Below are positions 47,545 through 59,463 of a DNA stretch of 64,000 nt, piece after piece. Position numbers and translations under genes: made by a program. Source of the stretch: Bacteroidetes bacterium 41-46 (GTDB lineage Bacteria > Bacteroidota > Bacteroidia > Bacteroidales > UBA932); assembly GCA_001897515.1 (NCBI GenBank), contig MKTA01000024.1, positions 62,001 to 126,000 of the forward strand, in the 5' to 3' direction. The first letter of the stretch is position 1. Every line of letters starts with the position of its first letter. The notes beneath the pieces are model-generated. The model made no database searches, was not told where the DNA came from, and saw only the letters and a program-made list of their open reading frames with translations.

Positions 47545-48441
47545 TCAATTCGCAAGCTCTTTTTTTCCTGTAATATTGCTAATAAAAATTCCTGAGACAA
47601 TTAAAGCAAGCCCCGCTATAGTCAGCAATTGAATCTCTTCTCCCAAAACCCTGTTTATAATAATAAATGAGAGCATTGGTGCAAGATATATCATCTGAGT
47701 AATGATAACTCTGTCAGATGCAATATTAAGAGCCTTATTCCATAAAATAAAAGTAATTCCCATTTCAAAAAGACCAACATAAACTGCAGCAAAAAAAGGA
47801 GTACCGAAAGTTATCGGTTCAGGGAATATTAAGTACACTATCAATAGATAAATAACTCCTGTCAGGAAATTCCTGAACAGCTCCTCTGCCGGATCTTTTG
47901 AGTTATCAATTTTAAGCATCCAGTACAAAGCCCATATCACTGTACTAGTGAGAATTAAAACAATACCGGCAAGCGATAATGTACCCGATGAGTCAGCCCC
48001 GTTATTGAGAGATAAGATAACAACTCCGCCAAAGCTGACTGCAACTCCCAAAGCCTGTTTAAAGCCTATCTTCTGTTTCATGAATATTGCCATAAGCACT
48101 ATCATTACAACCTGCCATGAGAAGTTCATAGGTTGTGCAATCTGGGCCGGCAAAAGCGAGTACCCTTTGAAAAGAATGAGGTAATAGATGAATGGATTCA
48201 ATGCTCCCTGCCAAACGGAACGGATAAGAGTCTCTCTGTCAATAAGAGACCTCAATGTTTTTAATAATTTACCATTGATTCCTAAATTGATGGCAAATAC
48301 AAACAGTGCAGTTGTTGATGATATTATCAATAGCGTTACAGCTCCCATACCACCAAGAGCGAGTTTGAATGCTGTAGCCACCGTGGCCCAGAAGAAGACC
48401 ACAAACGATGCCATAACTATAGCTCGTCTCTGATTTCTCAT
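47545..48441 (-). CDS. EamA-family DMT transporter
   Basis: A 298-residue inner-membrane protein with ten helices in two EamA repeats. The first half contains FVVFFWATVATAFKLALGGM and the second AGIVLILTSTVIWALYWML. These drug/metabolite transporters often export amino acids, nucleosides or similar small molecules; no specific substrate can be deduced. The start overlaps the M1 peptidase stop as ATGA; it is the last gene of the glnN-led run. The tRNA-Cys promoter begins 6 bp after its stop. Confidence 0.87.
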   Translation of the reverse strand: MRNQRRAIVMASFVVFFWATVATAFKLALGGMGAVTLLIISSTTALFVFAINLGINGKLLKTLRSLIDRETLIRSVWQGALNPFIYYLILFKGYSLLPAQIAQPMNFSWQVVMIVLMAIFMKQKIGFKQALGVAVSFGGVVILSLNNGADSSGTLSLAGIVLILTSTVIWALYWMLKIDNSKDPAEELFRNFLTGVIYLLIVYLIFPEPITFGTPFFAAVYVGLFEMGITFILWNKALNIASDRVIITQMIYLAPMLSFIIINRVLGEEIQLLTIAGLALIVSGIFISNITGKKELAN

Positions 48442-50873
48442 TTTTTGAATTTAGGATTAATTATATGATCAGACTGCTGGAGAAGTTTCCCTTTTAAAAG
48501 AGGGTGAATTTCAGCCTGATTCAGGTAATTGGTAATAAGTTCTGAGGCATGATCTCCTCTCTGACCTGTGAGAAGAGCCTGGAGCCAGTTCCTTGGGAAG
48601 AAAATATCTCCTGTTTTCTGAATCTCCGGAAGGATACTCAAAGCCGGGGCAATATAGTCAACAGCCTCCTCCTGTCGCGAAGTATGACACAAAAAACCAA
48701 GGGCAGAGGTAGCCCAAGGTTCAACATCTCTCCCCTCGCTTTTTAACAGGGCTCTGAATACTGAGTCTCTAACAGCTTTATCCGGAGATGCTGCCGGATA
48801 TATAAAATTGAACTCCTCTTTCCTGTCTTCTCCTGTCAGCCTTGAGAGAGTTACCATCTTAATTTGACTGTATAACTCAGGATTTCTGATTGCCGCCTCA
48901 TAAGCAATATTCATTAAATCTCTTTCGCTAAAATTTAATCCTGGATATTTGCTACTATTTATCAAGAGGTCACAAATTCTTTCAGACCAAATCTCTCCCC
49001 AGGCAAATCTTGTTAATGATCTTATAGCAGTTATTCTGAACTCCTCTCTTCTGTCTGACATGGCAATATTCCACAAACAATCTGCTGCTCTCCCGGAGCT
49101 CTCACTATTAAATAAATATAGAGTATTTATCCTGGACAGATAGCTTACAGCCCTGGAAAATATTAGCTTATCCTCTTCAAGCTGAAGCATTTCACAAATC
49201 CCGTCAGAAAATCTTTCCGGCAGTAAAATTCCTGCCAACGCATTTTCAAATAGCGTTGTAAGAAGAGAACCCCTTGTTACAGGGACACAGTCAGATATTC
49301 TCTGGAGAAGCATCTCGATATTAGATGAGTCGGTAATAAAAAGCCCATATGCCCTTCCGTCAACATTTGGATAGATTACACCATCTTCTGAGGGGATATT
49401 CAACATACTCTGGCGCCACTCCAGGCCTCTCTCAAACGGGTCTCTCTGCTCAACAGAAACTCCTCCGCTGTCAGAGAGTTTTAATATTATTTCTGGTCTG
49501 CCCCGCTCTTTTATCCACACATCGCTCCAGGATTTTAAATCCTCCACTGTATAGCCATCCAGAATCTCAACAAGGTTATCCCAGGTGGCGTTGGAGTAAG
49601 CGTACCTTTGCAGATACTCCTGAATCCCTTTTCTGAAAGCCTCCTCTCCAATCATCTCCACCATCATATCCATTACAATAGGAGCCTTGTTATAAATTAT
49701 GTTTCCATAAATCAAACCTGCATTTTCAAGATTATCAAGTGGCTGATGAATAGAATTTGCTCCGGCAGTACGATCTTCATCATATGCAGGCGGAAAATAG
49801 CTGTCTGTAAATGCCAGTTTATGGTCAATATCCGGGAATAGAGGAGCAACCATTCTGGCAGCAAACCAGTTAGCAAAAACCTCCTTTGTCCACACATCAT
49901 CAAACCACTTCATCGTTACTAAATCTCCAAACCACATATGCGCAGTTTCGTGTGCAATAAGCTTGGCCCTTGCAAACCTTTCCGCAGTAGTTGGACGCTC
50001 TCCTGTAAAGAGTGTCCTGTCGGCATAAAGTGTGGCTCCAGCATGCTCCATTCCTCCGTATTGAAAACCGGGAATAATGGCAATGTCGTATTTTGAGAAT
50101 GGATATGGTATTCCGGTATAATCCTCCAGCCACTTCAAAGAGGAGGAAATCTGTGCACCTATCGTGTCGCACTGAGCAACTCTGAATGGAAGACTTTCTC
50201 TGTGGAATATAGTTATGCTCCTACCACTGGAATTAACCTTGTGTTCGTTGAATATTCCTGCTACAAAAGAAAAAAGATATGTCGGCAAAGGTTCTGTTGG
50301 GGAGAATTTAACAACTCCCGCTTCTCTCTTCTCTTCATACGAGTTTGACATTGCCACCCACCCCTCAGGAAGTCTCAGAGAGAGCTCATATACGGCTTTT
50401 ATATCCGGCTGGTCAAAACAGGGAAACAGAGTCCTGGCCCTGTCGGGTACTAATAATGTGTATAAAAGGTCTTCTCTTCTGTTAAGGGATTGGTCACTTG
50501 CAGTAAATTTAGCATAGAGTGTGTTCTCTCCTCTTTTGAGATACCTCCTCTTAATAGTCAGATGCTCGTCAATGATCTCCGGGACTATCTCTTTACCGTT
50601 TACAATAAGAGCAGAGACAGGATTCAGGGAGTCATGAAGAAAATCAAGGTAGATGGTTTCAACCCTATTTAAAGAAAATTTTATTGTTGCTACTCCTTTA
50701 ACTGAAGAGTCAATGTGATTTGGTATGGAAAACTCCAGGCTATACTTGACAGATGAAATATTTTGGAACCTTCTCTCCGCTAACTCCTTGCTGACACCAG
50801 TACCCGGACCTCCGTTTTGAGGCGTACATCCGCTCAGCAGTAACAGAATCAGTATGAGAAGTGCCTGTTTCAT
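48438..50873 (-). CDS. M1-family aminopeptidase lipoprotein
   Basis: An 811-residue zinc aminopeptidase. The signal peptide ends in LLLSGC (Cys16), so it is lipid-anchored, probably in the periplasm. The exopeptidase motif appears as GGMEHAGATLY (GxMEN type, with His instead of Asn). The zinc site is HETAHMWFGD with the distal Glu in TKEVFANWFA. A HEAT-like helical C-terminal part follows. It would trim neutral or basic N-terminal residues from imported peptides. The ATG at 50873 overlaps the fRMsr stop as ATGA; a longer frame to 50912 is less likely. Confidence 0.93.
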   Translation of the reverse strand: MKQALLILILLLLSGCTPQNGGPGTGVSKELAERRFQNISSVKYSLEFSIPNHIDSSVKGVATIKFSLNRVETIYLDFLHDSLNPVSALIVNGKEIVPEIIDEHLTIKRRYLKRGENTLYAKFTASDQSLNRREDLLYTLLVPDRARTLFPCFDQPDIKAVYELSLRLPEGWVAMSNSYEEKREAGVVKFSPTEPLPTYLFSFVAGIFNEHKVNSSGRSITIFHRESLPFRVAQCDTIGAQISSSLKWLEDYTGIPYPFSKYDIAIIPGFQYGGMEHAGATLYADRTLFTGERPTTAERFARAKLIAHETAHMWFGDLVTMKWFDDVWTKEVFANWFAARMVAPLFPDIDHKLAFTDSYFPPAYDEDRTAGANSIHQPLDNLENAGLIYGNIIYNKAPIVMDMMVEMIGEEAFRKGIQEYLQRYAYSNATWDNLVEILDGYTVEDLKSWSDVWIKERGRPEIILKLSDSGGVSVEQRDPFERGLEWRQSMLNIPSEDGVIYPNVDGRAYGLFITDSSNIEMLLQRISDCVPVTRGSLLTTLFENALAGILLPERFSDGICEMLQLEEDKLIFSRAVSYLSRINTLYLFNSESSGRAADCLWNIAMSDRREEFRITAIRSLTRFAWGEIWSERICDLLINSSKYPGLNFSERDLMNIAYEAAIRNPELYSQIKMVTLSRLTGEDRKEEFNFIYPAASPDKAVRDSVFRALLKSEGRDVEPWATSALGFLCHTSRQEEAVDYIAPALSILPEIQKTGDIFFPRNWLQALLTGQRGDHASELITNYLNQAEIHPLLKGKLLQQSDHIINPKFKK

Positions 50874-51364
50874 GTCAGCCTGATATCTGAAGAGAGAAGC
50901 TCTTCCAGCCATCTCCTGTCGGTATCATCAAAGTCATTAAGTTTGTCAGAGTCAATATCCAGTACTGCTGTTATACGCCCCCCTCTTATTACAGGCACCA
51001 CAATTTCTGATTTTGAAAGAGAGCTGCAAGCAATATGGCCCGGAAACTCATCCACATCAGGAACAATTACGCTCTTTTCGCTCTTCCAGCATGTTCCGCA
51101 TACACCTCTTCCATAAGCAATCCTTGTACAAGCAACTGGTCCCTGAAAAGGTCCCAAAACCAGTGAGCTACCATGTTGCGAGGAGTCATTCCTTACAATA
51201 TAGAATCCAACCCACCAAAAACCGAAAGCCTCTTTTAAAGCTGCAGATATATTTGCCATGTTTGCTACATAATCATCTTCACCCTCCGTCAGCGCAATTA
51301 TCTGGGGTATTAATGCCTTATAAATCTGCTCTTTGTTACCATTTGGTATTATTAGTGTCTCCAT
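50870..51364 (-). CDS. msrC: Free methionine-(R)-sulfoxide reductase (GAF domain)
   Basis: A 164-residue GAF-domain enzyme that reduces free Met-(R)-sulfoxide. The signature FGFWWVGFYIV is followed by the three active-site cysteines in ACTRIAYGRGVCGTCW and HIACSS. AVLDIDSDKLNDFDDTDR is also conserved. It defends the free methionine pool from oxidation. It lies 14 bp after the rRNA methylase and is coupled to the M1 peptidase. Confidence 0.93.
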   Translation of the reverse strand: METLIIPNGNKEQIYKALIPQIIALTEGEDDYVANMANISAALKEAFGFWWVGFYIVRNDSSQHGSSLVLGPFQGPVACTRIAYGRGVCGTCWKSEKSVIVPDVDEFPGHIACSSLSKSEIVVPVIRGGRITAVLDIDSDKLNDFDDTDRRWLEELLSSDIRLT

Positions 51365-51378
51365 TAATTTCTAAATTT

Positions 51379-52578
51379 CTATTCTACATAAATAACCAAA
51401 CCCTTCAGATACTCACCTTCTGGATGGTAAATATTTACAGGATGGTCTGCAGGCTGAGTGAGCCTGTGAAGAATTTTAACAGACCTTCCTGTTGAGGCGG
51501 CGGCGGAAAAAACTGCCTCGGAAAACGATGTCTTATCAACAACCTGAGAGCAGCTGTATGTGAAAATAACTCCTCCGGGGGCAATTTTTGATATTGCCAT
51601 TGCATTTAACCTTTGATAAGCTCTGAGGGCATTCTGCAATGAACCTCTGTGTTTTGCGAAGGCAGGAGGATCTACCACCATAAGGTCGTAGTTGCCAGCC
51701 TCTGAGTCCCTGAGGAACTCAATTGCATCAGTAGTATATGAATTGTGGACTCTCTCTTGGGCAACTATTCCGGCAGCCATGTTAATCTCAATATTCCTCT
51801 CAAGGAGACTCATTGCCTTAGCAGAACTATCAACCGAGTCCACAGAGAGAGCTCCTCCCGCCAAAGCATATATTGAAAATCCTCCGGTATAGCAAAACAG
51901 ATTCAACACCCTCTTTCCTCTTGCATACTTTGAAAGAAGGGCCCTGTTATCTCTCTGATCAAGGAAAAAGCCGGTTTTCTGACCTTTAATCCAGTCAACC
52001 GAGAAGAGAATACCATTCTCTTTTACTATCTCCTCTCCCTCTCTTTTTCCAAAAATGTACCTGTCAAAGAGATCCAAATCTGCCTTAAATGGTGCTGTAG
52101 ATGAGCTTTTGTCGTAAACGGCAGTGAGCCTCTCTCCGAAGAGAGTCTTTAGTGCCTCTGCAATCTCTTTTCCGGCAAGGAACATCCCGGCAGAATGGGC
52201 CTGCATAACTGCGCAATCTCCGTAAATATCCACAATCAAACCCGGAAGATTATCCCCCTCGCCATGAATAAGCCTGTACGCTGTGTTATGGACGCTGACC
52301 ACTCCGGCAGCCTCCCTTAGTTTCAGTGCAGCAGTAAGCCTGTCTATCCAAAAGTTTTTTCCCGGGGCCTCTCCTCCAAATGAGAGCATACGGACAGCAA
52401 TGGAGCCAACCTGATAATGGCCAAAACCGATGGTCTCACCGGCAGACGAGACAACCCTTACAATGTCTCCCTCTGCCACATCTCCATCAATCCTTACAAT
52501 TGCTCCGGAGAAGACCCACGGATGGAATCTTCTGAGAGACTCTTCCCTTCCTCTTTTAAGTATTATCTCTTTTTTCAT
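51379..52578 (-). CDS. RlmI-like 23S rRNA (cytosine-C5)-methyltransferase
   Basis: A 399-residue SAM methylase. The N-terminal PUA domain (ILKRGREESLRRFHPWVFSG) is followed by an RlmI-type middle domain and a Rossmann domain with VLNLFCYTGGFSIYALAGGA and VDPPAFAKHRGSL. RlmI makes m5C1962 in 23S rRNA of E. coli; the same target is inferred. The ATG at 52578 is used, since the frame extends 25 residues upstream into the exonuclease gene. It overlaps the exonuclease stop by 23 bp. Confidence 0.92.
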   Translation of the reverse strand: MKKEIILKRGREESLRRFHPWVFSGAIVRIDGDVAEGDIVRVVSSAGETIGFGHYQVGSIAVRMLSFGGEAPGKNFWIDRLTAALKLREAAGVVSVHNTAYRLIHGEGDNLPGLIVDIYGDCAVMQAHSAGMFLAGKEIAEALKTLFGERLTAVYDKSSSTAPFKADLDLFDRYIFGKREGEEIVKENGILFSVDWIKGQKTGFFLDQRDNRALLSKYARGKRVLNLFCYTGGFSIYALAGGALSVDSVDSSAKAMSLLERNIEINMAAGIVAQERVHNSYTTDAIEFLRDSEAGNYDLMVVDPPAFAKHRGSLQNALRAYQRLNAMAISKIAPGGVIFTYSCSQVVDKTSFSEAVFSAAASTGRSVKILHRLTQPADHPVNIYHPEGEYLKGLVIYVE

Positions 52579-53176
52579 TATTTTGTAAAAGTTTCGGTGT
52601 GCTGAGCAGTTTAAGATACATCTGCCTGCAAATCCACGCATCAACTGCAGCATAGTTAATTTGAGCCTCAGTTAGCACCTCTGCCTCCCAGTTTGAGAGT
52701 TGCTGAGATTTGGAGACTTTCACCCCAAGCACTATTGCGGCCATCTTTCTTACGCTCTTCTCCTTTATTCCCCAGCTCTCGCCAATAGACTGCAAATCTA
52801 CAAAACCTCTTGGAACAAATTTTGTGTACCTCTGCAAACCTCTGATATCGTCCGTAACAGCAGCACCAACTTTTATTATTTTTTTTGTAGAGAGCAGTTT
52901 ACACAATGAATCGGGCATCCCTGTCTCGGTCAGTCTGAAGATAAATGCTCTTTCACCACCCGATAACTGAAGCAGAGCGACATTATTCCTTTTAACATTT
53001 GCCTGAAAAACAGGTTTTGTCTCAGTATCAAAGCCGATTATCTTTTGCGAAGTGAGGTAATCTAAAGCACTTTCGTAAATCTCATCAATTTTGTCCAATA
53101 TTGTCACCTCGCCGGTAAACTCTGCACTTTTCAGCTTATCAAGCTCTTCAGGTGAAATGGTAGATTTAAAGATCAT
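52556..53176 (-). CDS. DEDDy-type 3'-5' exonuclease domain protein
   Basis: A 206-residue single-domain exonuclease of the RNase D/DnaQ-like fold. Motif I is IGFDTETKP (DxE), motif II is in GAAVTDDIRGL, and motif III is INYAAVDAW (YxxxD). It lacks the HRDC domain of full-length RNase D, so it may act on small RNAs or damaged DNA ends; the substrate is unknown. Its start overlaps the racemase-like stop as ATGA and its 3' end overlaps the rRNA methylase start. Confidence 0.88.
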   Translation of the reverse strand: MIFKSTISPEELDKLKSAEFTGEVTILDKIDEIYESALDYLTSQKIIGFDTETKPVFQANVKRNNVALLQLSGGERAFIFRLTETGMPDSLCKLLSTKKIIKVGAAVTDDIRGLQRYTKFVPRGFVDLQSIGESWGIKEKSVRKMAAIVLGVKVSKSQQLSNWEAEVLTEAQINYAAVDAWICRQMYLKLLSTPKLLQNNEKRDNT

Positions 53177-54525
53177 TTTGTATTTACAAATTTCATTAAG
53201 ACGTATGTTGCCGGCAATCTATTCTTGATTCTCTCAAGACTCTCCTCTGGAATAAACTCTCTGGACAACTCCCTATACACATAAGTATCTTTAAGCCCTA
53301 CCAGTCCCCTTCCATATTTGAAATCAAATGTAAAGCCACCTCTAGGATCAAGACTTTCGGCAGAAAGAGATGGATTGGGAATACTTATGAAGGTTCTGAG
53401 TGATGCTGCTCTTTTGCTTTTATTTAGCAGTGAAGCCTCTCTAAGAGCGATGTATGTCTCAATTGCAACATATCGGGATGGATCAATAAAGTTAACGTTC
53501 TGCGAGAGCAAATCTCTGTATGGGTAGGAATCTCCTCTTTTAAGGTCTCTCAGCTCATTAACCATATTTTTCATAGTGTCAACAAGATAGGGATAATGAG
53601 TGCAGCCAAGTATGATATTTTCAATTTTTGCACCGCTATCCATGTTCCTGAATTTTTCAAGCAAAGAGACAAGATGGTATCTGGCATAGTTACCCGGCGA
53701 GTTCAGCTGAATATTGAGAATTTTACCCTCTTCAATACTGGTTAAAAGGGCATTACCGGCAGTGTCAAATTTATATGCATCCATAAGTGAGATGTTGATA
53801 TACCCATCACCCTCTCCCAATGTTGGCCCCCTGTAATTATCCCTGGGGGCAACAGCCGTCAGATCTGTATAGTCAGGCTCCAGATCTACAGACTCTGCAA
53901 AGCCGGATCCCGCCTGGCTGACTACAATCGGTTTATAATCTCCCCTCTTTGCAAACATATCATTAATGGTTCTCTCATATCCGCCTGATGCTATAGTTCC
54001 TTCAGTGGCAAGAACACCAACCGCAGAGGGTGAGTCTGTGTTTACGGAGGAGAGCAGCTCCTCAACAGCCGCATTTATAACCCCAATAACTCTTGTCCCT
54101 TCATGTTCAGTCTTAAGGTAATCCTCAACCTCTGACAGAGCATTTGCAGTAGCTGTATTGCAGGCAATAACAAGAATTTTTGAGTTTATCTGCCTTTCAG
54201 TAAGGAATCTGGCATCGTTAACAACAAGCTGCTTTAGTACATCCCCTTTACCCATTGAATTATATATTCCATAAGGCATATTAACCTGATCCGCTAAAAA
54301 GACAAACTCTTCGTTTGCAAAATCAGGCAAACCGTCAGCTCCTCTCTCCCCATTAGTATTATTAAACTCATCAAGAGTAAGGAAAGCCTCCAAAACTGTC
54401 AACCCTCCGGTTCCGGAGTCAAACATCCCAACCGGCTGCCTGCTCTTATCTGTGCATGAAACAAGGATAACTGAGGATAGCAGCAAAAAGAGTGTGCCTC
54501 TACTTAACATACCTGAACGTTCCAT
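53173..54525 (-). CDS. Glutamate/aspartate racemase-like lipoprotein
   Basis: A 450-residue protein combining an exported lipoprotein signal (lipobox LVSC, Cys24) with a MurI-type racemase fold. The catalytic motifs are intact: DSG at 36-38 (GMFDSGTGGLTVLE), the first acid-base Cys122 in IACNTATANAL, and the second Cys308 in GCTHYPYL with His310. The body is about 180 residues longer than MurI (about 265-270), with an insert at roughly 200-275 and a 100-residue tail. Cytoplasmic MurI supplies D-Glu for wall synthesis, so this exported version is unlikely to do that job. Its start overlaps purM by 26 bp (ATG at 54510 also possible). Confidence 0.85.
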   Translation of the reverse strand: MERSGMLSRGTLFLLLSSVILVSCTDKSRQPVGMFDSGTGGLTVLEAFLTLDEFNNTNGERGADGLPDFANEEFVFLADQVNMPYGIYNSMGKGDVLKQLVVNDARFLTERQINSKILVIACNTATANALSEVEDYLKTEHEGTRVIGVINAAVEELLSSVNTDSPSAVGVLATEGTIASGGYERTINDMFAKRGDYKPIVVSQAGSGFAESVDLEPDYTDLTAVAPRDNYRGPTLGEGDGYINISLMDAYKFDTAGNALLTSIEEGKILNIQLNSPGNYARYHLVSLLEKFRNMDSGAKIENIILGCTHYPYLVDTMKNMVNELRDLKRGDSYPYRDLLSQNVNFIDPSRYVAIETYIALREASLLNKSKRAASLRTFISIPNPSLSAESLDPRGGFTFDFKYGRGLVGLKDTYVYRELSREFIPEESLERIKNRLPATYVLMKFVNTK

Positions 54526-55687
54526 ATTGTGAAATTATTGTCGTCTCTGTCTCCTCTGACCTCTCAACTCTTCCTATTATTTTTGCATCAATCCCAAACT
54601 CCTTTGAAACTGAGATGATCTCTTTTGCACTCCCCTCATCTGTATAAATCTCCATTCTATGCCCCATATTAAAGACCTTGTACATCTCCCTCCAATCTGT
54701 GGCTGACTCTCTCTGAATAGCCCTGAAGAGAGGAGGAACGGGAAAGAGATTATCTTTTATAACAGAGAGTCCGTTTATAAAGTGAAGTATCTTGGTCTGC
54801 CCACCTCCGGAACAGTGAACCATACCATTGATTCTGCCCCTGCAACTCTCCAATACTTTTTTAATTACGGGTGCGTAGGTTCTTGTTGGTGAGAGCAGCA
54901 ATTTCCCATATGTCAGTCCACTCTCAGGCTCAATCTCATCAAGTTTTAAAGAACCTGTATAGACGTACTCTTTTGGTATCTCTGAGTCGTAACTCTCGGG
55001 ATATCTGTCAGCCAAATAGGATGAGAAGAGATCGTGTCTGGCTGATGTGAGCCCATTACTACCGGTGCCTCCATTATACTCCTTCTCATAAACAGCTTTT
55101 CCATAAGAGGCCAGTCCAACAATTACATTCCCCGGAGATATGTTGGAATTGTCAATTACATCTGCTCTGCGTATCCTTGCGCACACCGTAGAGTCAACAA
55201 TGATTGTTCTCACCAGATCTCCTACATCCGCAGTCTCACCTCCGGTTAGCCTGATATTGATTCCGTAATCTGCCATCAATGATGCAAACTCCTCCGTTCC
55301 GGCAATAATCTCAGCTATAACCTCTCCAGGAATTCTGTTTTTATTTCTCCCTATTGTAGAAGAGAGAACCATCTCATCAATAGCCCCAACACAAATCAGA
55401 TCATCTGTGTTCATTACGACTGCATCCTGGGCAATACCTCTCCAGACGCTAACATCTCCGGACTCCCTCCAATATGCATATGCAAGGGAGCTCTTTGTGC
55501 CGGCTCCATCTGCATGCATTACCAAAGCGTACTCATCATCTCCTGAAAGGTAATCCGGAACAATTTTACAGAAGGCACCCGGATACAGACCTTTGTCAAT
55601 TTTCGCTATTGCCTTGTGAACATCAGATTTAGAGGAGGAAACCCCTCTCATTGCATATTTATGTGCTTCTGTCTCTTCTTTACGCAT
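54500..55687 (-). CDS. purM: PurM-type phosphoribosylformylglycinamidine cyclo-ligase (AIR synthase)
   Basis: A 395-residue ATP-dependent enzyme that closes the AIR ring in purine synthesis. AIR-synthase signatures are visible: MRGVSSSKSDVH (start), LVMHADGAGTKSSLAY, AQDAVVMNTDDLICVGA, and RLTGGETADVGD. The sequence is longer than E. coli PurM (345) and clearly the Bacteroidota form. The stop overlaps the racemase-like start; it is 20 bp from glnN, so it is presumably co-transcribed with it. Confidence 0.9.
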   Translation of the reverse strand: MRKEETEAHKYAMRGVSSSKSDVHKAIAKIDKGLYPGAFCKIVPDYLSGDDEYALVMHADGAGTKSSLAYAYWRESGDVSVWRGIAQDAVVMNTDDLICVGAIDEMVLSSTIGRNKNRIPGEVIAEIIAGTEEFASLMADYGINIRLTGGETADVGDLVRTIIVDSTVCARIRRADVIDNSNISPGNVIVGLASYGKAVYEKEYNGGTGSNGLTSARHDLFSSYLADRYPESYDSEIPKEYVYTGSLKLDEIEPESGLTYGKLLLSPTRTYAPVIKKVLESCRGRINGMVHCSGGGQTKILHFINGLSVIKDNLFPVPPLFRAIQRESATDWREMYKVFNMGHRMEIYTDEGSAKEIISVSKEFGIDAKIIGRVERSEETETTIISQYGTFRYVK

Positions 55688-55707: not shown

Positions 55708-57894
55708 TTATCTTAAAAAAAGTAACTCCCTGTATTTTGGCAGTGGCCACAGCTCGTCATCCACAACCATTTCAAGCTTGTCTGCTATATATCTTATCTT
55801 CCCCATATATGGCAATACTGTATCAGAGTAAACCCTTGCTCTGTCTGATGGGCTCTCAATCTTGTTGGCCTCCTTTCGTGCCTCAACCAGATAGTGAAAA
55901 TCCTCTCTAAGTTGCTGGATATAACCTGATATCTTTCTTATTGCAGTAAGCTGTCTTTCTGACATTACTTTATATTCATCCGGACCAAACAGATCCTTTA
56001 TTCCACGCACATTATCAATAAGAGTGTTCTGGAACTTAATTGCAGTAGGAATAATGTGATTTATTGTAAGGTCACCTATTACCCTTGCCTCAATCTGAAG
56101 TTTTTTAACGTAAATCTCATTCATCACCTCATACCTGGCCTCAACCTCTTTCTCTGTAAGAACCTCCATCTCCCTCATAAGAGAGATGCTGCTATCCTCC
56201 ATGAAGGCCAGAAAAGCCTGAGGGACATCTGATATACCTCTTAGACCTCTTCTTTCAGCCTCCTCAAGCCACTCCCTGCTATATCCATTCCCCTCAAACC
56301 TGATAGCTGCTGATTCACTGATAAACTCCCTGATAGTCTCCAAAATTGCCTCATCTCTTGAAGCACCATTTGCAATTCTTGTTTCAGCCCTACTTCTGAA
56401 AGCTACAAGCTGTTGAGCAACAGCTGTATTGAGTATATACATTGACGAAGCGACATTAACCGATGAGCCCACAGCTCTGAATTCAAATCGGTTACCAGTA
56501 AATGCAAAAGGAGAGGTTCTGTTTCTATCTGTGTTATCCGGGAGAATCTCAGGTATCTTTCCAACAATATTCAAGCTTTTACTCATCTCATCGGCTGAAA
56601 TATTTTCACTAACCATCCTCTCTATTGAGTTAAGAACAGCTGTAAGGGTTCTCCCGACAAATACAGACATCACGGCAGGAGGAGCCTCGTTGCCACCCAG
56701 TCTGTGAGAGTTGTTCAGACTTGCAACACTTGCCATCAAAAGGTGGTGGTGTTCATGAACTGCTTTTATTACCGAAACAAAGAAGCTGAGAAACTGCATA
56801 TTTTTGCCAGGAGTTTTTCCGGGAGAGAGCAGATTTACCCCTTTGTCAGTAATAAGCGACCAGTTACAGTGCTTTCCGGATCCGTTTATGCCTGCGAATG
56901 GTTTCTCATGAAACAGTACCTTTAGCTTATGCCTTTTAGCAATCTTTCTCATCAGAATCATCATCATAAGATTCTGATCAACAGACAGATTCGCTTCTGA
57001 ATAATATGGTGCAAATTCAAACTGGTTTGGGGCAACTTCGTTATGTCTTGTTTTAAGGACAACACCAAGTTTGTATGCCTCTGTCTCAAAATCCTTCATA
57101 AAGGCCATAACCCTTGATGGTATGGCTCCAAAATAGTGGTCCTCCAACTGCTGATCCTTTGCTGCAGTATGTCCAATCAATGTTCTCCCGCAAAGCATCA
57201 GATCCGGCCTTGCCCTGAAAAGTGCCTCATCAACTAAAAAATACTCCTGCTCAATACCAAGAACCGCATTGACTCTGGAGGATCCCTGCCCAAAAAGTTC
57301 AAGGAGCTCCGAAGCTGCTCTGTCCAGAGTCTGAAGCGACTTTAAGTGAGGGGTCTTCTGATCAAGCGACTCTCCTGTATAAGAGACAAATACAGAAGGA
57401 ATACATAGAGTCTGGTCAATTATAAAGGCTGGAGAAGTAGGATCCCAGGCAGTATAGCCCCTTGCCTCAAATGTATTTCTCAAACCTCCGTTAGGGAAGC
57501 TTGAAGCATCCGGCTCCTGTTGTACAAGAGCCTCTCCTCTGAAGTTCTCAAATACACCTCCGTTTTTTGAAGGGTCCACAAATGCCTCATGCTTCTCAGC
57601 TGTTGCATCTGTAAGAGGATGAAACCAGTGAGTATAGTGTGTAGCGCCATTCTCAACAGCCCAGGCCTTCATACCTGAGGCTATCTGATTTGCCACCTCT
57701 CTACCAATCTTTCTCCCTTCTGAGATCGCATCCTGCACTGCATCAAATGCCTCGGCAGAGAGATACCGTCTCATCTTCTCCATATCAAAGAGATTTTTGG
57801 CAAAATATTGTGAAACCGGCTCGGATTCCACATAGAAACGTTCGGGCTTGTGCAATGAGAACTCATCAAGCGCCCTTTTTCTGAAGCTGCTCAT
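55708..57894 (-). CDS. glnN: Glutamine synthetase type III
   Basis: A 728-residue GSIII, the form found in Bacteroidota and cyanobacteria, making glutamine from glutamate, ammonia and ATP. Signatures are MKAWAVENGATHYTHWFHPL, the ATP/Glu segment RHNEVAPNQFEFAPYYSEANL and the metal/catalytic INGSGKHCNWSL, followed by NNSHRLGGNEAPPA. Length is normal. It heads an eight-gene minus-strand run including purM and the racemase-like lipoprotein, so glutamine supply and purine synthesis are linked. Confidence 0.97.
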   Translation of the reverse strand: MSSFRKRALDEFSLHKPERFYVESEPVSQYFAKNLFDMEKMRRYLSAEAFDAVQDAISEGRKIGREVANQIASGMKAWAVENGATHYTHWFHPLTDATAEKHEAFVDPSKNGGVFENFRGEALVQQEPDASSFPNGGLRNTFEARGYTAWDPTSPAFIIDQTLCIPSVFVSYTGESLDQKTPHLKSLQTLDRAASELLELFGQGSSRVNAVLGIEQEYFLVDEALFRARPDLMLCGRTLIGHTAAKDQQLEDHYFGAIPSRVMAFMKDFETEAYKLGVVLKTRHNEVAPNQFEFAPYYSEANLSVDQNLMMMILMRKIAKRHKLKVLFHEKPFAGINGSGKHCNWSLITDKGVNLLSPGKTPGKNMQFLSFFVSVIKAVHEHHHLLMASVASLNNSHRLGGNEAPPAVMSVFVGRTLTAVLNSIERMVSENISADEMSKSLNIVGKIPEILPDNTDRNRTSPFAFTGNRFEFRAVGSSVNVASSMYILNTAVAQQLVAFRSRAETRIANGASRDEAILETIREFISESAAIRFEGNGYSREWLEEAERRGLRGISDVPQAFLAFMEDSSISLMREMEVLTEKEVEARYEVMNEIYVKKLQIEARVIGDLTINHIIPTAIKFQNTLIDNVRGIKDLFGPDEYKVMSERQLTAIRKISGYIQQLREDFHYLVEARKEANKIESPSDRARVYSDTVLPYMGKIRYIADKLEMVVDDELWPLPKYRELLFLR

Positions 57895-57999: not shown

Positions 58000-59463
58000 A
58001 TGAAACCCGCTAAAGCTTTTGCAACACTTCTGGCTTTGATCTTCACAACTGCCGGACTACACGCCCAGAAAAACATCAGGGGCTACATTGAAAACCTTAA
58101 AAATGACACACTTTTCTCAAATGCAGTCGTAGGAATTATGGTTATGGACGAGAGAGGCAAAGAGGTAGCATCATGGAATCCGGATATGCCTCTTCTTACT
58201 GCTTCAACTATCAAGACAATATCTACTGGATTGGCACTTAAGGTACTGGGACCTGACTACAGATACAAAACAAGGATCGGGTACACCGGAAATGTTGAAA
58301 ACGGTGTTCTTAGAGGCAACCTCTACATTGTTGGAGGCGGTGACCCTACTCTAGGTTCAAGGGACACTGTTGCATATCCTATTGACTCAATTTTTGGAGT
58401 ATGGGAAAAGTATGTAAGACTTGCCGGAATTACAAGGATTGAGGGGAGTATTGTTGGAGACGACCGGTATTTCAAAAACGAAATTGTGCCTGGCGGATGG
58501 GCTGTCAGCAACCTTGGACCCTATTACGGAAGCGGTACTTCAGGCCTCTCGTTTATGGAGAACCTGCAAGAGTTCACTTTTATACCGGGTGAAGCGGAGG
58601 GCGACCCTGTCACACTTGCTTCTGTTTGGCCAAATGTTCCAGGTATGAAGATAGAGAACAAGATTAAAACTGGTGCTCACGGAAGCAGACAGCAGACAAA
58701 TTTAAGGCTGACAGATCTGGAGAGAGTTGCAAGGTACACTGGATATATTCCAGCAGGATCCAAACCATCAATTTTAACAGGATCCTGTAAATTCCCGGCT
58801 GTAGCATGTGCAGAGGAGTTCAGAAGACATCTTGAGAAAGTAGGGATAAGAAGCAATCCTCTTGCATACGATGTACAAAGCATACCAAATGCTCCTGAAC
58901 AAGATAGCATCATAATTATTGGCGAGACACACTCTCCTAGATTGGTCTCAATTGCAAATGTAACCAATAGAATAAGCAATAATTTTTATGCTGAGACTCT
59001 TTTCAAAACAATTGGAAAAGAGCTTACAGGGAGTGGCTCTTATGATTCATCAGCTGTAGCAGTCAGACGGCTTTTAAACTCAATGGGGCTTCCTTACAGA
59101 GGGTTTATGCAGGATGACGGTAGCGGTCTCTCAAGACAAAACTATGTATCTGCAAGATTTTTCTGCAATTATTTCTCCAAATTGAAAGAAAAAAACGATA
59201 ACTTTGAAGTGTTTTTTAACAGTTTACCACAACCAGGAGGTCCTGGAACCTTGGAAAATGTTATAAAAGAGGCGACACCGGAGCAGAAAGCCAGACTCCA
59301 TGCTAAGAGCGGCTCACTCTCCAATGTCAGGTGTTATGCAGGTTATGCCGAAAGAAGGGGTGGCGGAATGTACTACTTCGCAATACTCACAAACAACTTC
59401 CAGGCAAAGACTGCACAAATGCAGCCAAAGATAGAGGGCTTTATGAAAGAGTTATTAAAATAA
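58000..59463 (+). CDS. dacB: D-alanyl-D-alanine carboxypeptidase/endopeptidase, PBP4 type (S13)
   Basis: A 487-residue periplasmic penicillin-binding protein. The signal peptide (1-22, LHAQ) precedes the S13 catalytic motifs: S69-T-I-K72 (SxxK), SRQNYVS (SxN), and HAKSGSLSN (KTG-type box with Ser). A domain insert between the first and second motifs is typical of class C PBPs. It removes the terminal D-Ala or cuts cross-links in peptidoglycan. The aminotransferase gene follows at 19 bp, probably by chance of operon packing. Confidence 0.93.
   Translation: MKPAKAFATLLALIFTTAGLHAQKNIRGYIENLKNDTLFSNAVVGIMVMDERGKEVASWNPDMPLLTASTIKTISTGLALKVLGPDYRYKTRIGYTGNVENGVLRGNLYIVGGGDPTLGSRDTVAYPIDSIFGVWEKYVRLAGITRIEGSIVGDDRYFKNEIVPGGWAVSNLGPYYGSGTSGLSFMENLQEFTFIPGEAEGDPVTLASVWPNVPGMKIENKIKTGAHGSRQQTNLRLTDLERVARYTGYIPAGSKPSILTGSCKFPAVACAEEFRRHLEKVGIRSNPLAYDVQSIPNAPEQDSIIIIGETHSPRLVSIANVTNRISNNFYAETLFKTIGKELTGSGSYDSSAVAVRRLLNSMGLPYRGFMQDDGSGLSRQNYVSARFFCNYFSKLKEKNDNFEVFFNSLPQPGGPGTLENVIKEATPEQKARLHAKSGSLSNVRCYAGYAERRGGGMYYFAILTNNFQAKTAQMQPKIEGFMKELLK

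Follow-up and report, generated by a model that had tools for sequence, protein, structure and literature searches.

Why does a Bacteroidales bacterium carry a glutamate racemase-like protein behind what looks like a lipoprotein signal? The glutamate racemase MurI is generally regarded as a cytoplasmic enzyme and as a drug target, and an exported form standing beside an ordinary MurI contrasts with this status. The gene in question is located at 53173–54525 on the minus strand of the window, by which we mean the whole stretch of 64,000 nucleotides that was analysed, and encodes 450 residues counted from the first ATG. These coordinates are exactly those of an earlier sequence-only reading, which had predicted an exported lipoprotein with a complete glutamate racemase active site. 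All the motifs on which that prediction was built are present in the ORF (all on the minus strand): the L-V-S-C lipobox with Cys24 at the end of a signal peptide (residues 1–24, 54454–54525), D36-S37-G38 of the MurI active site (54412–54420), A121-C122-N123-T124-A125 with the catalytic-type Cys122 (54151–54165) and G307-C308-T309-H310-Y311-P312 with the catalytic-type Cys308 (53590–53607). The placement between a purM-type gene and an exonuclease gene is likewise correct. Both are direct neighbours on the same strand. The PurM-like (AIR synthase) gene (54500–55687, PF00586/PF02769), on the upstream side, overlaps the lipoprotein gene by 26 bases; on the downstream side, the overlap with the 3'-5' exonuclease gene (52556–53176, PF01612) is 4 bases. 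The second gene upstream, also on the minus strand, encodes glutamine synthetase III (55708–57894; PF12437, PF00120, PF18318). The PurM-like neighbour scores 114.7 bits with TIGR00878, below the cut-off of 236.35, and so may have diverged from AIR synthase or be a paralogue of it. Two peptidases are encoded less than 5 kb from the lipoprotein gene: an aminopeptidase of the M1 family (48438–50912), whose N-terminus resembles a lipobox (LLLSGC), and an S13 D-Ala-D-Ala carboxypeptidase (58000–59463). Promoter and terminator scans gave 13 hits versus 10.5 in shuffled sequences and 4 versus 4.3, respectively, from which no excess is concluded either way.

The domain that follows the lipobox is, by its sequence matches, homologous to the Asp/Glu racemase superfamily (PF01177). 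Its phmmer search against the PDB matched 24 distinct chains, 23 glutamate racemases and one aspartate racemase, the best relative being 1b73 (E 1.4e-15), and the family profile (A1, 28 rows) aligned with a 3-row MurI profile over residues 31–386 with a probability of 99.9 and an E-value of 1e-33 (hhalign). The MurI-like core proposed from the sequence is thus borne out by both methods. The protein is nevertheless divergent from the curated models, with 90.1 bits for TIGR00067 (cut-off 146.65) and 26.2 bits, E 8e-6, for PF01177 (cut-off 31); the aspartate racemase model TIGR00035 (23.4 bits) and the cysteate racemase model NF052483 (27.3 bits) scored weakly. The active-site residues described for the Helicobacter pylori enzyme, D7, S8, C70, T72, E150, C181, T182 and H183 (PMC6927343), align with D36, S37, C122, T124, D214, C308, T309 and H310 of the window protein. 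All eight positions are invariant in the 63 intact members of the family that were placed in a tree, with Asp replacing Glu at position 214 (53884–53886, minus strand). Besides the signal, the protein has three additions to MurI, all encoded on the minus strand: an Asp-rich loop at residues 52–72 (54310–54372), some 60 residues (net) inserted behind D214, roughly at residues 215–278 with approximate edges (53692–53883), and a C-terminal tail of about 64 residues (387–450, 53176–53367). The sequence-only reading had seen the insert and the tail but overestimated both. It gave about 75 residues near 200–275 for the former and about 100 for the latter, while the MurI profile alignment supports the smaller net insert and MurI is alignable up to residue 386. 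It did not mention the Asp-rich loop, which is the best-kept part when active and inactive members are taken together. In the tail, which does not align with MurI, the K-Y-G-R motif (403–406) stands out, K403 and G405-R406 being invariant and Y404 present in 98% of intact members. AlphaFold2 models made with the window protein and the members L037 and L038 (mean pLDDT 37.0), and with the ordinary MurI of L039 added (39.7), were too poor to use; the best Foldseek match of the latter (E 0.5) missed the threshold of 0.001, and the search is uninformative on the fold.

Export is supported by the conservation of the lipobox throughout the family. Cys24 is preceded by residues 6–23, MLSRGTLFLLLSSVILVS, a typical lipoprotein signal with a hydrophobic stretch. 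Translation probably starts at Met6 (54508–54510, minus strand), giving a signal of 18 residues, because relatives such as L028–L030 have no upstream in-frame Met. The lipobox position is occupied by Cys in 92 of 93 relatives, the sole exception (L126) being cut by a contig end, and this sequence support favours the earlier prediction of an exported lipoprotein. The residues flanking this Cys vary, yet Lys or Arg is present upstream of it in 91/92 and Ser, Ala or Gly at position −1 in 83/92. A chance lipobox can be ruled out on this count. In Bacteroidetes, acidic residues after the Cys are described as a signal for surface export of lipoproteins (PMC5080379). Such an export-like acidic pair at +2 to +6 is present in only 8 of 92 relatives and is missing in the window protein, and surface exposure was rejected as the default.

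To follow the lipoprotein without picking up MurI in general, we used a profile of the insert and tail only (A2). Within the window's family (f1) it matched 134 of 199 genomes and 17 of 25 genera at E ≤ 1e-6, a count that includes short weak matches and one genome (G1184) where the match led only to an ordinary MurI. At E ≤ 1e-12, matches were found in 10/393 genomes of the order, 8/395 of the phylum, 20/164 of the order of G494, which belongs to another class, and 1/194 of the order of G695. Genomes were sampled evenly from larger groups for the f1, order, phylum and G695's-order surveys, and the window genome itself is counted in the first three. L037 and L038 come from Bacteroidales MAGs. 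No match was confirmed in viral contigs, whether the family profile or MurI served as query. The gene is, on these profile matches, a member of a conserved bacterial family scattered through the phylum. In a first alignment of 28 rows, Cys122 was present in 28/28 and Cys308 in 27/28; the rows had been picked by the motif DSGTGGLTV, so that DSG is there by construction, and L014 and L036 were dropped, the latter having failed the picking motif. A second set comprised 40 loci, among which L114 has no member and L116 is an ordinary MurI that served as outgroup; L140 and L141 contributed to dN/dS only, and the tree was built without L079, L126, L037 and L038. Over 93 aligned members, D36, S37, C122 and C308 are all kept in 65 (the 63 of the tree plus L037 and L038). 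The active site is lost in 23. In three others (L025, L074 and L078) Ser replaces the second catalytic Cys (GSTH), a kind of exchange that costs a MurI about 1000-fold in activity (PMC6927343). L079 is an internally shortened copy, and L126 retains both Cys in its remaining part.

Genus codes g2, g6, g37, g506, g508, g510 and g513 account for all 23 members that have lost the active site. These members all adjoin the exonuclease and/or the PurM-like gene (by eye, 20/23 and 18/23, respectively), and since these neighbours are kept they occupy the same locus as the window gene. While Cys122 is present in none of the 23, all 23 have Cys24, D52, N56, D64, D68, F69, G71 and E72, and likewise K116, P349 and R362. 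The loop residues D52, N56, D64, D68 and E72 are also kept at 90–100% in the 63 intact members, and the whole loop is missing from the aligned MurIs. Pairs of inactive members gave dN/dS values of 0.059–0.336 in 12 of 12 sampled cases, with dS below 1 in only three of them (dN/dS 0.095, 0.059 and 0.154). Seven intact pairs gave 0.077–0.155, and an eighth was saturated. The sampled pairs look as if they were under purifying selection. Mere gene decay is ruled out by these ratios together with the open reading frames. In g513, seven genomes (G1144, G1159, G1172, G1183, G1194, G1233 and G1242) each match twice, on separate contigs, and in the two genomes for which both copies were read (G1144 and G1172) an inactive copy is at the old place and an intact copy elsewhere. 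By eye, the intact g513 copies (L133, L134, L136 and L138) adjoin enolase-like and PHP-like genes, and the last three stand opposite aspartokinase-like genes; L135, L137 and L139 are inactive copies at the old locus. A quick tree needs two changes between the lost and kept states, although its root and this count are unsafe, the lost rows being long branches beside a distant outgroup.

Because the inactive members keep the lipobox and the Asp-rich loop and look purified, we read the MurI-derived scaffold as probably having a second, non-catalytic function. Racemisation cannot be the sole selected function, since 23 members lost the site and three have Ser308. Members that keep anchor and loop without the site amount to natural mutants in which this second function is uncoupled from catalysis. 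That the loop is a metal site is a guess. Its DGIPD presumably resembles a calcium-binding repeat of the thrombospondin type 3, a likeness we take as a lead only, and no such Pfam family was found in residues 52–72 at E ≤ 1. The same data could be extended to the whole family, which would then be a binding or structural envelope protein built on a racemase scaffold, with the anchor and the loop (perhaps metal-bound) as its essential parts and a site whose main task, where it is kept, is to bind glutamate or a fragment of the wall. Ligand binding had been offered as an alternative from the start, and it has gained from the inactive members, whose conserved anchor and loop and low dN/dS indicate that selection can act on binding or structure alone. 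As an account of the family as a whole it is, however, rather unlikely, because 65 of 93 members retain the Asp, the Ser and both Cys, and the other residues of the MurI site, hardly needed for binding alone, do not vary in any of the 63 intact ones.

What the intact members act upon may be reflected in their gene neighbourhoods. Many f1 loci retain one gene order: glutamine synthetase III, PurM-like gene, lipoprotein gene, exonuclease and methyltransferase. Most loci of this family show no linkage to salvage genes. By itself this conserved order says little, and these neighbours are not wall-recycling genes except on a generous reading of glutamine synthetase III, the M1 aminopeptidase and the S13 carboxypeptidase. 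We compared 26 loci, 25 outside f1 plus that of G031 of f1, where the gene has changed place, with 20 control stretches taken from 11 of these genomes. Eleven seed proteins were used: AmpG, a GH3 NagZ-like protein, a MurNAc/GlcNAc kinase, two D-aminoacylases, a GltP-like and a POT protein, a dipeptide epimerase, a D-amino-acid transaminase and two C69 peptidases. Seeds matched in 14/26 loci versus 0/20 controls (332 versus 330 kb), a contrast to be read knowing that the seeds were chosen post hoc after seeing the loci, that the locus of a seed matches itself, that loci are related by descent and that stretch lengths differ. Without the loci matched only by their own seeds, 10/26 remain (L082, L084, L085, L088, L089, L091, L092, L093, L094 and L103); 12/26 neighbourhoods have no seed match. 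The seeds were named from their matches, which were obtained for the kinase (PDB 8zo3, 2.4e-42), the D-aminoacylase (1m7j, 8.3e-71; N-acyl-D-glutamate deacylase 3gip, 1.5e-59), the dipeptide epimerase (3jva, 5.1e-72; 1jpm, 2.3e-70) and the D-amino-acid transaminase (TIGR01121, 290.8, above 277.45). The AmpG-family seed matches PDB AmpG 8zgz (2e-17) and has 160.1 bits with TIGR00901 (cut-off 350), the GltP-like symporter has 434.9 with PF00375 and 275.5 with NF008440 (below 638), and the GH3 seed (PF00933) is fused to a beta-lactamase-type domain. Proteins of about 960 residues related to this fusion are encoded in wall-recycling neighbourhoods in L090 (4359–7235), L088 (1649–4528) and L103 (7350–10232), the domains having been scanned in L090 only. 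In f135, each genome has a single AmpG-like protein of 617–629 residues, which is encoded near the lipoprotein gene in 7 of 10 genomes (G805, G910, G881, G882, G883, G475 and G486, but not G773, G494 and G915); these seven represent three genus codes and are not seven independent events. Two SDF-type symporters are encoded elsewhere in the window genome, as is an AmpG-like protein, whose gene is not beside that of the lipoprotein.

The same salvage linkage would also fit a racemase or epimerase of another substrate (a different acidic amino acid or a peptide that contains D-Glu), in which the insert and the tail would widen the site. These are indeed conserved additions, relatives of D-aminoacylase and dipeptide epimerase are among the neighbours, and in the same superfamily the fungal OpaE is reported to act on a peptide derivative (PMC12661438). 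We consider this improbable, given that the residues of the MurI glutamate site are retained save for Glu to Asp and that nothing places the insert or the tail near the site. The sequence-only reading had proposed that wall-derived D-/L-Glu or Asp is the ligand. Glutamate has gained from the neighbourhoods outside f1, whereas aspartate has no specific support, the amino acid racemase model TIGR00035 giving 23.4 bits versus 90.1 for TIGR00067.

A second murI, whose absence together with a proven cytoplasmic location would have made the lipoprotein simply the wall-synthesis enzyme, was found elsewhere in the window genome (assembly of 2.47 Mb, 34 contigs, 93% complete). It encodes an ordinary MurI of 272 residues without signal (205.7 bits with TIGR00067). 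The genome also encodes another superfamily protein, L001, of 375 residues. A search of 60 genomes, the window genome among them, found TIGR00067 matches above the cut-off in 49, and an ordinary MurI accompanies the exported form in the window genome and in many relatives. The lipoprotein therefore need not be the wall-synthesis enzyme, and its role as sole MurI is ruled out. That it is an ordinary cytoplasmic glutamate racemase with an N-terminus merely resembling a lipoprotein signal would agree with the cytoplasmic location given for MurI in a 2026 review (PMC12844806) but is very improbable with the lipobox Cys kept in 92/93 relatives, even if its flanks vary, and a separate MurI in the same genome. 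One genome of g6 (G029), 99% complete, has an inactive lipoprotein copy (L075, 7099–8631) and no TIGR00067 match; its source of D-Glu is puzzling.

The reading we prefer, to which we give a probability of roughly one half, is that the lipoprotein is a periplasm-facing racemase that salvages the D-Glu of wall peptides and that has become non-catalytic in some genera. After export by Sec and lipidation at Cys24, the protein would be retained in the envelope, most likely oriented towards the periplasm. The domain derived from MurI, to which the family added loop, middle insert and tail, would racemise free glutamate without cofactor, Cys122 and Cys308 acting as the two acid/base residues. D-Glu released from peptidoglycan stem peptides by envelope hydrolases could be converted to L-Glu, and import of the product by symporters could drive the reaction in the D-to-L direction. 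Labour would be divided between the cytoplasmic MurI, supplying D-Glu for wall synthesis, and the lipoprotein, serving salvage. In several genera catalysis would have been lost and a structural or ligand-binding role kept. A more specific version, in which envelope-anchored racemases salvage wall D-glutamate and the inactive, selected lipoproteins may be metal-dependent binders or sensors of wall fragments, is tentative, and we regard it as possible rather than probable. If active, the lipoprotein adds an extracytoplasmic step to peptidoglycan salvage and bears on the fate of D-Glu from stem peptides cut outside. We found no description of an exported glutamate racemase in the parts of literature listings that were covered, most subscription journals being outside their coverage.

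Amino-acid racemases acting outside the cytoplasm are known in the periplasmic broad-spectrum racemases. The lipoprotein would resemble them in its proposed place of action, but they are PLP-dependent enzymes with a different fold. OpaE, as presented in PMC12661438, has in common with the lipoprotein family the PF01177 superfamily and two catalytic Cys; unlike it, OpaE is fungal and belongs to the allantoin-hydantoin subfamily. In Tannerella, a transcriptional unit AmpG-MurT-MurK-MurQ has been described, and its authors suggest a strong periplasmic amidase activity (PMC7670621), with which stem peptides would stay outside. Genes for an AmpG-like permease and a MurNAc-type kinase likewise stand beside the family in f135. 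In contrast, no racemase is named in that description of the Tannerella unit (PMC7670621), and the window gene is not next to AmpG. The closest system is MurI/RacE itself (TIGR00067; PDB 1b73, 2jfu, 2gzm), with which the lipoprotein shares the core fold as judged by sequence, the two-Cys site, the Asp-Ser and the Thr-His. It differs in its export signal, loop 52–72, middle insert and tail and in the Asp that takes the place of the active-site Glu, and it scores below the TIGR00067 cut-off and occurs beside an ordinary MurI.
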